Part shown: piece by piece, positions 50,054 through 56,060 of the stretch
Layout of the letters: each line of letters begins with the position of its first letter
Numbering within the stretch: the first letter of the stretch is position 1
NCBI RefSeq assembly: GCF_001642735.1
Contig: NZ_LWHM01000033.1
Location: 248,001-312,000, forward strand
Direction: 5' to 3'
Length of the DNA: 64,000 nt
Source: Pseudohongiella nitratireducens
GTDB lineage: Bacteria; Pseudomonadota; Gammaproteobacteria; Pseudomonadales; Pseudohongiellaceae
The notes under the pieces: model-generated
Seen by the model: the letters and a program-made list of their open reading frames with translations, nothing else
The model's database searches: none
What the model was told of the DNA's origin: nothing
Position numbers and translations under genes: made by a program

Positions 50054-50117
50054 TACATTTGGGTATGATGAGAGAACTATTCATAATGTGAGTGCCCCCT
50101 ACATAGAGCTTGAGCAA

Positions 50118-50777
50118 ATGCCATTTCGTTTTCTTTTTCACTACCTGCTCACTATCGCGACGTTTGTCTCAGCCTTTGGCATCTCAACAGCTTACGGTGA
50201 ACGACTACAGGTCATTGACCAGGATGGTAATCCGGTTGCCAATGCCGTCGTCAGTTTTCCATCGCAGGGACCGATCCCGGTACCTGAGTTGAATGCTGTT
50301 ATCGATCAGATTGATAAACAGTTTGCCCCCCATGTTCTAGTGGTCCAAAAAGGGCAGTGGGTGAACTTCCCCAACAGTGATGACATTCGCCATCATGTCT
50401 ATAGTTTCTCTGATCCCAAAACATTTGAGATGCGTCTTTTTAATGGTACAGACTCTGAACCGCAACTCTTTGACCAGCAGGGGATCGTCGTACTGGGCTG
50501 TAATATCCATGATGAGATGCGTGGTTTTATCTACGTGGCTGATCAGGAGAATACGGGTGTTACTGATGCTGGGGGTTATGCGGAAGTACAGGTAAATGGC
50601 AGTGACTTCGATGTCTGGCACGAACGCCTTTCAGCCAGTCAAACGGAAAAGCGAACCATGAGCATTGATTCTCTGATTGACGGATCACCCAGGCAAGTTC
50701 GTATTACCCTGGTGATTGATGCTCAAGCGGAAGAGGATGAGCGCACATTCCGGTCACGTAAATTCGGTAACGACTAA
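50118..50777 (+). CDS. Exported cupredoxin-like protein (methylamine-utilisation-like)
   Basis: A 219-residue protein. It has a signal peptide (residues about 1-27, ending STAYG), a short strand domain resembling carboxypeptidase-regulatory repeats (LQVIDQDGNPVANAVVSF), and then a plastocyanin-like fold at about 68-145. Type I copper ligands are present: His92 or His93 in IRHHVYSF, Cys128, His131 and Met134 in GCNIHDEM. The C-x2-H-x2-M spacing equals that of amicyanin. Such proteins are often labelled methylamine utilization protein, although no mau genes are nearby. The linked downstream genes suggest an envelope copper/redox sensing or electron-transfer role. The frame opens earlier inside moaE; ATG 50118 gives the signal peptide. 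Confidence 0.85.
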   Translation: MPFRFLFHYLLTIATFVSAFGISTAYGERLQVIDQDGNPVANAVVSFPSQGPIPVPELNAVIDQIDKQFAPHVLVVQKGQWVNFPNSDDIRHHVYSFSDPKTFEMRLFNGTDSEPQLFDQQGIVVLGCNIHDEMRGFIYVADQENTGVTDAGGYAEVQVNGSDFDVWHERLSASQTEKRTMSIDSLIDGSPRQVRITLVIDAQAEEDERTFRSRKFGND

Positions 50778-50792
50778 CTAGGCGGTTCGGCA

Positions 50793-53114
50793 GTGGCACA
50801 GCAATCCCTGAATCAGAACATTTTCCGGTTAGTTGTTGGGATTGTCCTGATTACGACAGTCGTCATCCTTGTTAATGTCTGGACATCCACCAACAATCAC
50901 GCACAACAGCAACTTAATCGTGATCTGGATGTGGCCGAAAGTGTGCTGGAAGAAATTCTGGCTAATCGTGAAGAGCAACTGATTAACTCTTCACTGGTTT
51001 TAACGGCTGACTTTGGTTTCAAGCAAGCGGTTGCAACAGAGGATCGCGCGACCATCGATAGCGTTTTACAGAATCATGGCGAGCGTATTGATGCTGACTT
51101 GATGGCACTGACCTCTTTGGACGGTATCAACATTACCAGTACCCCCTCAGTCCTGCCTGTCGGGCAACCATTCCCTCACCAAACTCTGATTACGAATGTA
51201 CTACGCGACGGCGGAGTCTCATCCTACATGCAGGTTGGCAATGAGCTTTACCAGGTCATACTGCTAACGGTGGATGCCCCGTCGCCGATTGCTATTACTT
51301 TGCTCGGCTTTCGCCTGGATGGTGAGTTGCTGTCTCAGTTAAAGAACGTGACACAGCTGGATACCAGTCTGCAGGCAAGTGGCAGCAATAGCAGGCCTTT
51401 ATTTTTAAGCACATTACCAGTGAGCGAGCAGGATAACATCACAGCCTCTATCAGCAGGCAACTGAACTGGCGCGAAGTGGCATTTGGTTTCAGTGATGCG
51501 ATTGTCAGCCGGAAAATGGAACTTGCCAGTGAACACGATCTGTCGATTTCCATCCTGTTGACAGAAGATATAAACAGACTCTTCAATGAATTTTCAACAT
51601 TACAGGCAAACATAGCGATTATTGCGTTCCTGTCTGTGATTTTTGCATTGATCTTTGCAGCACTACTGTCCCGTCGACTGACCCGCCCGCTGTCCCGTCT
51701 TTCCGCTATTGCCGGTCGAATCAGTAGTGGTAATTACGATTACAAAATTGAGCATGAGTCAGACTCCAGAGAGTTTACCAATCTTGCCACGGCCTTTCGT
51801 CAGATGCAGGAAAGCATCAAGGCACGTGAAGAGAGAATAACTTACCAGGCAAACCACGATGCGGTAACTCAATTATATAACCGACACAGCGCTGACCGGA
51901 TACTGCAGAAGAGACTGGAAGACGGTGCTTCTTTTCAGGCGATTGGGGTGAGTATTCTCGGTTTTCGTAACATTAATGATGTGTTTGGCTATCAGAATGG
52001 TGATGTCTGCTTACATCAAATTTCAAGACGCTTATCCGATCTGGGTGGATTTGGCGCAAGATTAACAGGCGGGGAGTTGTTATGGGTTCCAGACAGAGAG
52101 TTTGGTAACGATGAGCTTGAAGCGCTGCGTCACTCTTTGGAACAGCCTGTTAACACTGGTGAGCTGGTCGTTAATATTCAGGTTTCTCTTGGTGTGATGC
52201 TATGCCCACAGCATGCAGATACGGCAGAGGATCTGTTCCGTCGAATGAATATTCTGATGGATACCGCCAAGTTACAGCAACAAATATTAGCTTACGATGA
52301 AGAACTGGATAGAAAGTATCAGCGTCGTTTGTCGGTGGTGACTGAGCTGGAAAGAATGCTGCTGGAGGAAAGGTACGAGTTTTCTTTGCACTATCAACCC
52401 AAAGTCAACTTGCAAACCGGGAAAGTGCAGTCGCTGGAAGCCTTGTTGCGCTGGCACAGTTCTGAGTTAGGATTTATACCTCCTGATGAATTTATTGTTC
52501 TCGCCGAACATGCCGGATTCATTAATCAGATAACTGACTGGGTAGTAACACAGGCAATTAGTGACCTGGCGCTGCTGCAAAGCAAAGACATACCGCTGTC
52601 TGTTTCCGTTAATTTGTCAGCGCAGGACGTCACCAATGCTGATTTGCTGGCGAATATTCAGCAACAACTGAATCAGCAGCAGGTCGCTGAACACAGTTTT
52701 GCTATAGAAATAACCGAGAGTGACCTGCTTAAAGAACCGGAAAAGGCCATCAGGTGCTTAATGGAATACCGGCAACATGGGTTCGAAATTGCCATTGATG
52801 ACTTTGGTACAGGTTACTCATCTCTGGCCTATTTAAAAAGCCTGCCAGTAAATGTTTTGAAAATCGATAAAAGTTTTGTTCTCAATCTTGATCAACAACA
52901 GGAAGATCAACAAATTGTCAGCAGTATTCTTGAGTTGGCAAAAAGTTTTGATTTGCACGTTGTCGCGGAAGGTATAGAGAGCGCTGAATCATTAGCACTT
53001 CTGCATAATTGGGGATGCGAGTGGGGGCAGGGGTATTTTATCAGTAAACCTTTGTCATTCACTGCTCTGCTAGAGTGGTATGAAGTTCATAAAGACACAA
53101 ATTGGGTGGAGTGA
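50793..53114 (+). CDS. Membrane sensor with degenerate GGDEF and intact EAL domains
   Basis: A 773-residue probable c-di-GMP phosphodiesterase. The first membrane helix is at about 12-30, a periplasmic CACHE-like sensor at about 35-270, the second helix at about 275-295, HAMP at about 296-350, GGDEF at about 355-500 and EAL at about 515-765. The GGDEF signature is GGELL (426-430), so cyclase activity is unlikely. The EAL catalytic set is complete: Glu549 (EALLRW), Asn in SVNLSA, Glu in EITESD, Asp669-Asp670 (DDFGTG), Lys690 and Lys693 (KIDKSF), and Glu726 (AEGIE). The start is GTG 50793, 15 bases after the cupredoxin gene, implying one operon. The signal sensed is unknown. Confidence 0.9.
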   Translation: MAQQSLNQNIFRLVVGIVLITTVVILVNVWTSTNNHAQQQLNRDLDVAESVLEEILANREEQLINSSLVLTADFGFKQAVATEDRATIDSVLQNHGERIDADLMALTSLDGINITSTPSVLPVGQPFPHQTLITNVLRDGGVSSYMQVGNELYQVILLTVDAPSPIAITLLGFRLDGELLSQLKNVTQLDTSLQASGSNSRPLFLSTLPVSEQDNITASISRQLNWREVAFGFSDAIVSRKMELASEHDLSISILLTEDINRLFNEFSTLQANIAIIAFLSVIFALIFAALLSRRLTRPLSRLSAIAGRISSGNYDYKIEHESDSREFTNLATAFRQMQESIKAREERITYQANHDAVTQLYNRHSADRILQKRLEDGASFQAIGVSILGFRNINDVFGYQNGDVCLHQISRRLSDLGGFGARLTGGELLWVPDREFGNDELEALRHSLEQPVNTGELVVNIQVSLGVMLCPQHADTAEDLFRRMNILMDTAKLQQQILAYDEELDRKYQRRLSVVTELERMLLEERYEFSLHYQPKVNLQTGKVQSLEALLRWHSSELGFIPPDEFIVLAEHAGFINQITDWVVTQAISDLALLQSKDIPLSVSVNLSAQDVTNADLLANIQQQLNQQQVAEHSFAIEITESDLLKEPEKAIRCLMEYRQHGFEIAIDDFGTGYSSLAYLKSLPVNVLKIDKSFVLNLDQQQEDQQIVSSILELAKSFDLHVVAEGIESAESLALLHNWGCEWGQGYFISKPLSFTALLEWYEVHKDTNWVE

Positions 53115-53118
53115 AAGT

Positions 53119-53967
53119 ATGCAAAGATATAAACGTCTGCCAATCTATTGCCTATTGCCAATGGTGCTTGTATCGGCGCCTGTTTTTTCAGCAGATGGCA
53201 AATTAATTGGCACTGCAGGGCTGACGCAAATAGAGGGCGCTGGCGGTGGTGGTCTGGTGCCCTGGGCGACGTTATCAGGATATGATTCTGAGGATCAGAT
53301 TTCAGCCAGCTCTGCCGTGACGGTCGTTGATGTCGATGACTACCGTTTGAATGCATTTGGTATGAGTGCCTCTTTTTATGATCGTGCTGAAATCAGCCTG
53401 TCACATCAGCGCTTTGATCTTAAATCCCTTGGCGGCACGATACGCCAGAACATTGTTGGCATGAAGTATCGTCTGTACGGAGATGTGGTTTACTCAGAGC
53501 TGCCGCAAATCAGTATTGGTTTGCAGCATAAACAATTGTCCGACACGGCTGTCGCTGAAGCACTGGGTGCCGATGATGATCAGGGCACAGATATTTACCT
53601 GGCAGCAACGAAAGTTCACCTGGGAGCCATTGGCGGCTATAACGCTGTCTGGAATTTAACAGCCAGAGCGACCAAAGCCAACGAAATGGGGCTGTTAGGT
53701 TTCGGTGGTACTCAGAACTCCGATTATGAGCTGCAACTGGAGGCATCAGCAGGCATTCTGTTTTCACGTAACCTGGCAGTCGGTGTTGAATACCGGCAAA
53801 AGCCCGATAATCTGGGTTTGGGGGAAGATGACTGGGTGGATGCATTTGTCAGCTATATTCCCAGTAAGTCGGTTAGTATCACTGCCGCGACAGCTAATCT
53901 GGGAGCCATTGCCGGTGCGCCCGGGCAAAGCGGATTTTATCTGTCATTGAATGCACAACTGTGGTGA
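53119..53967 (+). CDS. DUF3034 probable outer-membrane beta-barrel protein
   Basis: A 282-residue protein with a signal peptide (residues about 1-25, ending VFSAD), then GLTQIEGAGGGGLVPWATL, a segment I recognise from the DUF3034 family. The rest alternates polar and hydrophobic residues in strand-length runs (AEISLSHQRF, VWNLTARATKA, LAVGVEYRQKP) and ends LSLNAQLW, with a terminal aromatic residue as in outer-membrane barrels. GGAGTGA precedes ATG 53119, four bases after the EAL gene stop. The function is unknown; a pore or a stator for a periplasmic partner is possible. Confidence 0.82.
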   Translation: MQRYKRLPIYCLLPMVLVSAPVFSADGKLIGTAGLTQIEGAGGGGLVPWATLSGYDSEDQISASSAVTVVDVDDYRLNAFGMSASFYDRAEISLSHQRFDLKSLGGTIRQNIVGMKYRLYGDVVYSELPQISIGLQHKQLSDTAVAEALGADDDQGTDIYLAATKVHLGAIGGYNAVWNLTARATKANEMGLLGFGGTQNSDYELQLEASAGILFSRNLAVGVEYRQKPDNLGLGEDDWVDAFVSYIPSKSVSITAATANLGAIAGAPGQSGFYLSLNAQLW

Positions 53968-53974
53968 GCTATTT

Positions 53975-54388
53975 ATGAGATTACTGATTGTTATTCTGCT
54001 CTTCGGCCTTACAACCGCCTGTGTCACTTCCTCACAAAGCCTTTATGCTGAGCTTGGCGGCGAGGATAAAGTCGATGAAGTGGTCGAGAATTTTATTACA
54101 GAGATTGAATTTGATCCGATGATGTATGATTATTTTAAAGACTCTGATATCGGTCGGTTTCGGGAAAAGTTCACAGAACACTTTTGTATGTTGACTGGCG
54201 GCCCTTGTGAGTACACAGGGGATACGATGGAGCAGGTCCATACCGGCATGGAAATTTCAGAAGCGAACTTTAATCATGCAGTCGACTTGCTGATATCGGC
54301 CATGAACAAGGCCAACATACCACACCGTCTGCAAAATCGCGTATTGGCCACCATGGCGCCACTGCGTGGTTCAATTATTTATATCTGA
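53975..54388 (+). CDS. Lipoprotein group I truncated hemoglobin
   Basis: A 137-residue protein. The lipobox LTTAC places the lipidated Cys at residue 16, so mature protein would be membrane-anchored on the periplasmic side. The rest is a truncated globin: SLYAELGGEDKVDEVVENF at the A/B helices, YFKDSDIGRFREKFTEHF, and the proximal His89 in QVHTGMEIS. Group I forms are known for O2 and NO binding or NO dioxygenation, usually in the cytoplasm. Export is therefore unusual. ATG 53975 is chosen because the signal then starts correctly. It follows DUF3034 by seven bases. Confidence 0.88.
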   Translation: MRLLIVILLFGLTTACVTSSQSLYAELGGEDKVDEVVENFITEIEFDPMMYDYFKDSDIGRFREKFTEHFCMLTGGPCEYTGDTMEQVHTGMEISEANFNHAVDLLISAMNKANIPHRLQNRVLATMAPLRGSIIYI

Positions 54389-54526
54389 TGTTGTTGCAGG
54401 CACTTCGTCATGCCGCTCCTGACGATCGCACACTGTAAGATTACTATGACAGCTTCTCGGTTTACGCTGATTCCCTGATACGAAAAGAACCATTATAACG
54501 TATGAAAAATCGCGATAACCGAGGGC

Positions 54527-56060
54527 TTGATATTGTTGCTTTTCTTGCTGACAGTGCTCATGGGGCTGACTCTTCTCGTTTTTTTCTATCTGTCAGTCAG
54601 CAAGAGACGTGAATCGCGTTTACACCAATTGCTTGAGCAACTGGCCTCAGGTGAAATCCTCAATCGTGCGTTGCTGCTTGATGCCAATGTGCAGAACCAC
54701 GCCTTGTCAAAACCGCTGTTACGTTTTCTGGATAATATGCTGCGCCGCGAGGCGCGCTTACAGGAACTGACAAAACAGGACTTTCTCACCACATTCAAAA
54801 CGCAAAATGGTTCGCAGTCTTTTGTGACTCAGAAATTGGCCATGCGCCATTCTCCATTTGATGCCGTGTCTGTGAGGATTAATAACCTGCGCATCATCAA
54901 CGATATCTATGGCTTTCACCACGGCGACAACTGCATTAAGGAAGTAGCAAACAGACTGGCCGCTATTCCGGGCAGTGGCATAAGAATGGATAGCGGTGAT
55001 TTATTATGGTTATCAGAGACTACGATAAACGCCTCAGAGTCAGAGGCTCTGGTCGACAGCTTATCCTTGCCTGTGATGTCAGCGGGAAGCACTATCGCAA
55101 TAGATTTAGTCCTGGGTATCGTCAATTGTCCGGCACAGGCTGACGGCTGTGAGGCACTATTTCGGCGGGCCTGGCTAACTCTCGAGCAAGCCTGTCAATC
55201 CAGGTGTCGGTTTAATCACTATTGCGCCAGCCTGGACAAAACGTACTTGCGAAGATTATTGATCATTGCCGAGTTGGAGTCCGTGTTTAATGGCAGGGAC
55301 TCTGAGTTCAGCTTGTTCTACCAGCCTAAAATGAACCTCGCAACGGGACAGGTTGAGGCCGCAGAAGCACTCATTCGTTGGCATAATCCGGTGCTGGGTA
55401 ATGTGTTTCCCGATGAGTTTATTCCACTTGCTGAACAGACAGGTTTGCTGTCTAAAATCAGCTACTGGGTTGTCAGTCAGGCGGTGCGTGATTTGCTTGT
55501 TTTTCGTGAGAGAGATGTACCGATTTCAGTTTCAATTAATGTATCTGCCGACGACATTACTGATCCCCGTTTGTTGGAACACGCTGTGCATTTGCTGCAG
55601 GTAAATGGTTTGCCTGCTTCACAACTAAGTTTTGAACTGACAGAAAGTCAGTTGCTGGAGAATCCGGATCAGGCCATCATTCACCTGACTGAATTTAGAA
55701 AACATGGCTTTCGCCTTGCGATAGATGATTTCGGGACAGGATATTCCTCACTGGCATACCTGAAACGCTTGCCTGTCGATGAGCTTAAAATTGATAAAAG
55801 CATTTGTAATGCAACTGGATACACAACCGGATGATCAAAGTATTGTGCAGGCCATTCTGACGTTGGCACAACGCTTTCAGCTGGCCGTAGTAGCAGAGGG
55901 GGTGGAGGTGCCAGCGTCCTTGTCTTTGTTGCATCAATGGGGGTGCCATTGGGCGCAAGGCTACCTGGTAAGCCGGCCTTTACCACAAGAGCGTTTTATC
56001 GAATGGTTTGTTAGCGACGAATCCCGGACATGGCAGCAGCCATATCGTCTGGAACAGTAA
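54527..56060 (+). pseudogene. Second GGDEF/EAL protein, frameshifted near the 3' end
   Basis: The first frame (54527-55834) encodes one N-terminal helix (residues about 2-21), no large sensor domain, a degenerate GGDEF (signature SGDLL) and most of an EAL domain: EALIRWH, ELTESQ, DDFGTGYSS and KIDKS. After Ser425 it reads ICNATGYTTG and stops. The missing EAL end (FVMQLDTQPDDQSIV, AEGVE, GAQGYLVSRPL) continues in the next frame from 55803 to 56060. Removing one A at 55802 joins them into about 510 residues. The upstream paralogue shows KIDKSFVLNLD at this point. It is either a recent null mutation or a sequence error. The start is TTG 54527 or 54533. Confidence 0.88.

Follow-up and report, generated by a model that had tools for sequence, protein, structure and literature searches.

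Genes of the cassette

The window, a stretch of 64,000 nucleotides from Pseudohongiella nitratireducens, carries four genes that we treat as one cassette: an exported cupredoxin (CUP), an inner-membrane receptor with dCache_3, HAMP, GGDEF and EAL domains, a predicted outer-membrane β-barrel of the DUF3034 family and an exported truncated haemoglobin (Table 1). All four open reading frames (ORFs) lie on the same strand, with 15, 4 and 7 nt between them. That this quartet is a real functional unit we regard as nearly certain, and our best overall reading, at a probability of roughly 0.55, is an envelope-spanning receptor with CUP as its periplasmic input. The original prediction for this locus counted five consecutive same-strand genes; the first four stand as described (gaps of 4-15 nt), but the fifth falls into two ORFs in different frames. 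Promoter-like sites (5 against 8.9 expected) and terminator-like sites (10 against 6.0 expected) were uninformative.

Table 1. Positions in the window of the cassette genes, the split fifth gene and the inserted segment.
Feature	Position	Strand	Basis
CUP, exported cupredoxin	50118..50777	+	family profile, copper ligand set, structure model
Receptor dCache_3-HAMP-GGDEF-EAL, inner membrane, GTG start	50793..53114	+	Pfam
DUF3034 predicted outer-membrane β-barrel	53119..53967	+	Pfam, predicted structure
Exported group 1 truncated haemoglobin, lipid anchor probable	53975..54388	+	Pfam, family profile
GGDEF-EAL paralogue, sensorless, split by frameshift near 55,800	54527..56060	+	ORFs, Pfam, identity to receptor
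Inserted segment, moaE to rsuA-like gene	50054..56060		synteny versus related genomes; DUF3034 and receptor trees

The CUP of the window matches no Pfam family above its cut-off. Among sequences in the PDB, the family profile matches copper nitrite reductase (NirK), blue-copper proteins and amicyanin. Cupredoxins are also the top fold matches of the AlphaFold2 model (mean predicted local distance difference test score, pLDDT, 88.8), in an alignment that covers about 100 of the 219 CUP residues. A type-1 copper ligand set is present (H92, C128, H131 and M134), its residues being kept in 47 of 47 aligned rows, and ligand residues and fold together make CUP a predicted type-1 copper protein, in agreement with the exported amicyanin-like copper protein first proposed. 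The ligand loop, Cys-x2-His-x2-Met, is one that we take to resemble the amicyanin loop. CUP nonetheless differs from amicyanin and the NirK-type cupredoxins in that less than half of its length aligns with them, in its genetic tie to receptors and in that no methylamine dehydrogenase gene was noticed nearby. Orthologues carry the database names 'methylamine utilization protein' or 'carboxypeptidase regulatory-like'. We rejected the former as functional evidence since no dehydrogenase gene was noticed; yet a CCP_MauG gene adjoins CUP at two loci (L257 and L258).

The conserved ligand set, and the barrel-like partner found at many loci, would also suit copper acquisition or homeostasis, in which copper or a copper complex enters through the barrel, CUP binds it in the periplasm, the receptor reports copper status and the globin protects from damage by copper or nitric oxide (NO). 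This possibility, which overlaps partly with a receptor that has CUP as its input, we consider unlikely. Type-1 sites of the His-Cys-His-Met kind are typical of electron transfer and not of transport, and at DUF3034 loci no member is more constant than the globin. Moreover, no copper ATPase, metallochaperone or multicopper oxidase was seen by eye in the mapped neighbourhoods, in which no systematic search for them was made.

In the receptor, dCache_3 (PF14827; 38.4 bits, cut-off 25.7) and HAMP (47.1 bits, cut-off 25) both exceed their Pfam cut-offs, so that the membrane GGDEF/EAL protein with a periplasmic sensor is confirmed at the level of domains. The GGDEF motif of the window receptor is degenerate, reading TGGEL with no GG(D/E)EF signature; an intact motif occurs in 27 of 76 aligned receptor rows. 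The Glu/Asn/Asp/Lys/Gln set of the EAL domain, at the positions that we take to be catalytic, is complete in the window, and all 75 of the 75 homologues retain the residues at eight core positions. Given the degenerate GGDEF motif and the complete EAL residue set, the output of the window receptor is predicted to be cyclic di-GMP (c-di-GMP) phosphodiesterase activity alone. Among the NCBIfam matches listed for the two EAL proteins of the locus (25 of 44 and 25 of 27 families), no equivalog lay above its cut-off. The receptor resembles other dCache_3 receptors in these two sensor-side domains; its subfamily differs from them in being tied genetically to CUP and in having c-di-GMP, cyclic-nucleotide, Ser/Thr-kinase and His-kinase outputs among its members.

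The third gene product matches Pfam DUF3034 at 354 bits. Its predicted structure, a 12-stranded barrel following a leader, has best matches that include FapF, KdgM and OmpG and is consistent with the outer-membrane barrel originally proposed. Near the N-terminus lies a conserved glycine-rich GGG-x2-PW segment of low model confidence, and eight invariant residues, from T32 to W49, fall inside the low-confidence segment 21-55. The 80 named loci described below were chosen by two DUF3034 peptide patterns, so the conservation of those peptides there is partly a product of selection; the glycine triplet and the Trp are also invariant in an independent alignment of 17 DUF3034 rows. A scan of viral contigs gave no DUF3034 match.

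The first matches of the globin family profile are group 1 truncated haemoglobins, and Pfam assigns the protein to the bacterial globins. It shares with trHbN and its kin the proximal His and the CD1 Phe, both present in 51 of 51 globin rows. It differs from them in being exported, in a Cys pair that is nearly invariant (50 of 51 rows) and in its distal positions, hand-assigned from profile alignments, which are apolar throughout the 51 rows: I, L, V or M at B10, F, L or I at E7 and L, F, M or I at E11. The polar B10/E11 residues that hold O2 in the trHbN type occur at these hand-assigned positions in none of the 51 rows. In trHbN a Tyr/Gln distal set binds O2; set against this, the apolar haem pocket of the family speaks against simple O2 storage. 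Such a pocket would be expected to hold O2 weakly and to take up NO or sulfide more easily. The leader site of the window globin, TTAC, is no textbook lipobox. A loose lipobox pattern is found in 37 of the 51 rows, and a Cys follows the leader in 7 of the 14 others. The membrane-anchored truncated haemoglobin originally proposed holds as a truncated globin that is exported, with a lipid anchor that is probable.

Recurrence of the quartet

We sampled 369 genomes of the class, 14 control genomes, 37 relatives and a draw of 398 genomes from the phylum. DUF3034 is present in 18 of the class genomes, in none of the controls and in 15 of the relatives. A contig scan yielded at least 548 DUF3034-encoding stretches, the best 80 of which serve here as named loci. 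CUP is found at 73 of these 80, the receptor at 69 and the globin at 79. In 59 of them the order is CUP-receptor-DUF3034-globin, and the gap (measured from longest-ORF starts) does not exceed 60 nt at the first, second and third junction in 59, 59 and 58 of these 59; one further locus (L128) was scored without a receptor in this count through the choice of ORF and has one according to other maps. The flanking genes differ between lineages. Plasmid records with DUF3034 encode CUP as well in 12 of 13 cases, and three plasmids that we opened have the order DUF3034-globin-CUP-EAL (two from Caballeronia) or an EAL-CUP pair divergent from DUF3034-globin (Novosphingobium). The content of the quartet is thus the same, in rearranged form, across three classes, namely that of the window and those of the alpha- and betaproteobacterial plasmids. 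The alignments A5, A6 and A7 used 46 of 58, 48 of 66 and 50 of 70 references, plus the window.

Two loci deserve separate mention. In a Methylophaga metagenome-assembled genome (L089, 4044-9737) the quartet stands beside an opposite-strand homologous receptor with GGDEF alone, possibly giving opposed synthesis and hydrolysis arms. At L036 (6373-8775), near-identical overlapping ORFs of 117 amino acids (aa) follow each other at steps of 281 nt next to the cassette, beside a Ppx/GppA-like gene (by eye), and form a direct repeat array.

The CUP-receptor pair and its outputs

At E ≤ 1e-10, CUP occurs in 78 of the 369 class genomes. From the class sample we took 59 CUP places (all those of at least 95 bits plus a selection of weaker ones, including those on contigs with a receptor), 51 receptor places (leaving out a second fragment row of genome G085), every one of the 18 places of DUF3034 and, for the globin, the 19 strongest. 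Where CUP scores at least 120 bits (n = 30), a receptor lies within 5 kb at 27 places and DUF3034 at 11. Seen from the other side, CUP lies within 5 kb of 26 of the 29 receptors of at least 200 bits, and of 34 of all 51. A fresh sample from the phylum draw, with a receptor model built from 12 DUF3034-linked rows, gave 60 CUP places, of which 7 were omitted as present in earlier samples. The remaining 53 include 43 with a receptor (39 of these within 20 nt) and 29 with DUF3034, all of the latter with a globin; where DUF3034 is lacking, 16 of 24 still have the receptor.

The outputs attached to this pair vary. The 43 receptors of the fresh sample comprise 39 with EAL, 2 cyclases and 2 others. 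These two others (L257 and L258) are PAS-rich hybrid histidine kinases with the CCP_MauG gene, for a di-haem peroxidase-like protein, between CUP and receptor. Among 17 CUP loci without DUF3034 (L143-L159), 15 have a receptor: 6 GGDEF-EAL proteins, 4 class III cyclases, 4 Ser/Thr kinases and 1 histidine kinase. At L147, the locus with the histidine kinase, a gene for a response regulator lies nearby, and two kinase-type loci have a PP2C-like neighbour (by Pfam at L158, by eye at L181). A tree of 81 receptor domains (81 of 129 rows used, 4 partial or doubtful rows dropped) needs 5 output changes where the minimum for its 5 labels is 4, and 0 of 200 shuffles scored as low. In a second subfamily, a weak CUP and a GGDEF-EAL receptor of 901-990 aa occur together in 8 of 8 loci (L163-L167, L178-L180); a phosphoenolpyruvate carboxylase-like gene is the neighbour in 7 and an argininosuccinate lyase-like gene lies on the other side in at least 4 (by eye). 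No barrel or globin is labelled in the maps of these eight loci. Judged by gene neighbourhood, the CUP-receptor pair persists where DUF3034 is absent, and DUF3034 and the globin mark one subtype of it. The readout as c-di-GMP that was originally proposed agrees with the predicted EAL output in the window but is too narrow, given that the same receptor family has cyclase, Ser/Thr-kinase and His-kinase outputs.

The outer-membrane partner is no more fixed. We compared 21 barrel-like candidates: 11 from CUP loci form one family (B) of 403-432 aa with porin similarity that is weak at most, 4 of the remainder form a second family of about 300 aa, and two pairs accompany kinases. These alternative partner families are likely outer-membrane barrels. 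Family B is found with a cyclase receptor (L144), a histidine kinase (L147) and GGDEF-EAL receptors (L152, L153, L156, L241), and also without an adjacent receptor (L148, L217, L231, L236, L242). Since one barrel family goes with several receptor types or with none, partner and output vary independently. On a Comamonas plasmid (L205, 4943-8897) DUF4394, CUP and EAL genes stand in a row, with DUF4394 where other loci have the barrel gene. Elsewhere (L155, 4368-9905) a CUP relative has as its neighbours a transporter of RND type (by eye) and two proteins that look exported, without a receptor. The CCP_MauG genes themselves lie at 5681-6694 of L257 and 7401-7739 of L258, the latter ORF being short.

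Some of these partners recall an envelope redox path to the cell surface, with CUP and haem proteins as carriers, the barrel as porin and the receptor monitoring electron flow. One alternative barrel family is weakly MtrB_PioB-like, below the cut-off, and the di-haem CCP_MauG partner at two loci would fit as well; the globin, however, is not a c-type cytochrome, and no multihaem cytochrome or surface reductase was seen by eye, a systematic search for these not having been made. We consider such a path quite improbable.

A different division of labour would have dCache_3 bind a small molecule directly, with CUP, barrel and globin as effectors of the same response, for example in envelope electron transfer or detoxification. 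Amino acids, citrate or AI-2 are reported, in passages of a 2022 review (PMC8846402), as the signals that dCACHE domains in c-di-GMP enzymes sense, and the five family B loci at which CUP lacks an adjacent receptor point the same way. On the other hand, CUP remains constant while the output of the receptor varies, and in the second subfamily the (weak) CUP and the long receptor adjoin in all eight loci without a mapped DUF3034 or globin. We hold direct ligand binding of this kind to be an unlikely account.

Exceptions to the linkage

A number of observations weigh against the quartet as a fixed unit and against CUP as the input of the receptor. At 7 of the 80 named loci CUP, DUF3034 and the globin lack a receptor in the stretch (5 Marinomonas, 1 Paraglaciecola and 1 Rheinheimera), at 3 there is a receptor without CUP, at 4 DUF3034 and the globin are alone (two of these cut near contig ends), and one, at a contig end, has no globin. 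In the class sample CUP lies within 5 kb of 11 of the 18 DUF3034 matches, the receptor of 10 and a strong globin of 12, and 5 matches are without all three (L045-L049; four on contigs shorter than 13 kb). Globin matches are common (102 of the 369 class genomes) and only the strongest stand beside DUF3034: 11 of 11 at 160 bits or more, 12 of 18 at 120 bits or more, and three strong globins that we fetched (L160-L162) stand alone. As for the pair, 17 of the 51 receptor places have no CUP within 5 kb (two of the genomes, G334 and G090, have a weaker CUP next door), and 10 of the 53 fresh CUP places have no receptor. The receptor-to-CUP count is also biased, because every row of the receptor profile (A4; 17 rows) comes from a CUP-linked locus. 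Finally, no fusion of CUP with the receptor, nor any ORF combining two cassette families, was found in the ORFs examined.

The lone DUF3034 genes (L045-L049) would be expected if the cassette were a chance or housekeeping neighbourhood and no functional unit. Against this, the linkage holds over three classes despite different flanks, orders and orientations, and we give chance a negligible weight. The recurrence in other gammaproteobacteria that formed part of the original prediction is thus borne out by the counts at DUF3034 loci, plasmids and CUP places, and the conserved-neighbourhood check proposed along with it found the homologues to co-occur commonly.

Local history and the split fifth gene

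On its 5' side the cassette follows moaC, moaD and moaE (moaE by Pfam; moaC and moaD by eye). In 12 of 13 related genomes moaE adjoins an rsuA-like gene (the 13th, from another family, showed moaE only), whereas in the window genome about 6 kb lie between the two, and the 3' end of this inserted segment overlaps the rsuA-like ORF by 50 nt. DUF3034 is present in 11 of 14 congeners. All 10 congener loci that we fetched have the trio of CUP, DUF3034 and globin next to a divergently oriented gene for a dCache-HAMP-cyclase (two of these identified as cyclases by Pfam), with recX- and recA-like genes after the globin in 9 of 10 and a gene cluster (c7) beyond the cyclase in 10 of 10. The window genome lacks this cyclase-type cassette, and 61 nt separate its recX-like gene from its c7 homologue; it has a single DUF3034, and CUP, strong globin and receptor each occur at one place.

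The window DUF3034 groups with three Alteromonadaceae rows, apart from the congeners, with a support of 97 in the Shimodaira-Hasegawa-like approximate likelihood ratio test (SH-aLRT; 71 of 111 rows used), and the window receptor falls together with four receptors of GGDEF-EAL type from Alteromonadaceae loci (SH-aLRT 96; deep placements are unsure owing to long branches). Both trees are quick ones, with SH-aLRT as their sole support and long branches flagged. A horizontal origin is suggested by trees and sites; composition is little different (GC 47.1% versus 50.3%). We read the window strain as having lost, or never had, one type of cassette and as having acquired another with a different output. 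Together, the window strain and its congeners amount to a natural experiment, in which a homologous envelope trio is tied to two second-messenger enzymes within one genus.

The fifth gene begins 138 nt past the globin. Its ORFs, 54527-55834 and 55779-56060, lie in different frames and carry EAL profile positions 10-179 and 172-236, and identity with the receptor over its GGDEF-EAL half is 42% and 51% for the two pieces. With its EAL pieces in different frames, the gene is a pseudogene, or else the split is an error of the assembly. No GGDEF-EAL gene follows the globin in the mapped cassettes of relatives. A second EAL gene as a member of the module, as initially proposed, is therefore not upheld: it is broken by a frameshift and absent from those cassettes. 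It lies in the segment that only the window genome has, and may have arrived, or been duplicated, with the cassette.

A proposed mechanism

What could the envelope proteins do for the receptor? Given that CUP stays while both the output and the outer-membrane partner change, CUP as the input subunit is the most economical arrangement, and CUP probably couples directly to the dCache domain as its immediate input in the periplasm. The barrel would admit a small redox-active ligand (NO, products of O2, peroxide or sulfide), the exported globin would handle this ligand and thereby set the state of CUP, and the metal, redox or liganded state of CUP would set the HAMP signal through the dCache domain. 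In the window the result would be c-di-GMP hydrolysis only; in the congeners, a cyclic nucleotide is predicted to be made by the homologous receptor beside the same trio. That barrel and globin pass a redox or gas stimulus to CUP is the more tentative step, and we would sooner bet against it than for it. Sensing of O2, NO or copper redox state, as originally proposed, is likewise a hypothesis. A broader proposal, a new class of receptor gated by a copper protein, with CUP as input, exchanged outputs and an interchangeable outer-membrane or haem partner, falls in our estimate a little short of even odds.

If true, bacteria would have a general redox or copper-ligand sensor that works across both membranes. 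It would give c-di-GMP enzymes, cyclases and kinases that lack a known stimulus an input open to testing, and DUF3034 a context. As the outputs of this one receptor family differ, any convenient one of them could serve to read the sensing step.

Comparison with known systems

Among the open-licence PubMed Central (PMC) papers listed, we found no description of the CUP-receptor pair or of the quartet; DUF3034 turned up a single time in each of two papers, and no mention of its accession, PF11231, was found. The original prediction knew of no assigned function for the gene set, and none emerged there, nor in passages of the 2022 review with its census of c-di-GMP stimuli, the main text of which contains neither 'cupredoxin' nor 'copper' (PMC8846402). 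The cassette suggests an envelope sensor of a kind not described before.

Its nearest analogues appear to be YfiBNR, where a periplasmic protein controls an inner-membrane c-di-GMP enzyme, as set out in parts of PMC2837407, and HmsCDE, where the periplasmic redox state acts via a periplasmic partner on such an enzyme, according to passages of PMC5550408. As described in those passages, the two systems share with the cassette an outer-membrane component, a controlling periplasmic protein and an inner-membrane c-di-GMP enzyme with a periplasmic domain. The differences are that the periplasmic partner in the cassette is a cupredoxin, that barrel and globin are extra, that the enzyme of the window combines a degenerate GGDEF with EAL and is not a cyclase, and that outputs vary among relatives. 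No match to a YfiR-like periplasmic repressor was found among the cassette proteins (Pfam, and the NCBIfam matches listed), and Pfam gave no OmpA match in the cassette, its outer-membrane protein being DUF3034 and its presumed lipoprotein the globin. By analogy, the cassette may work like YfiBNR and HmsCDE but does not carry the features that mark their members. Globin-coupled sensors (DgcO and kin), as portrayed in passages of PMC8846402, likewise place a globin in a c-di-GMP setting; there the globin is a domain within the enzyme, whereas the group 1 truncated globin of the cassette is exported and encoded by a gene of its own.

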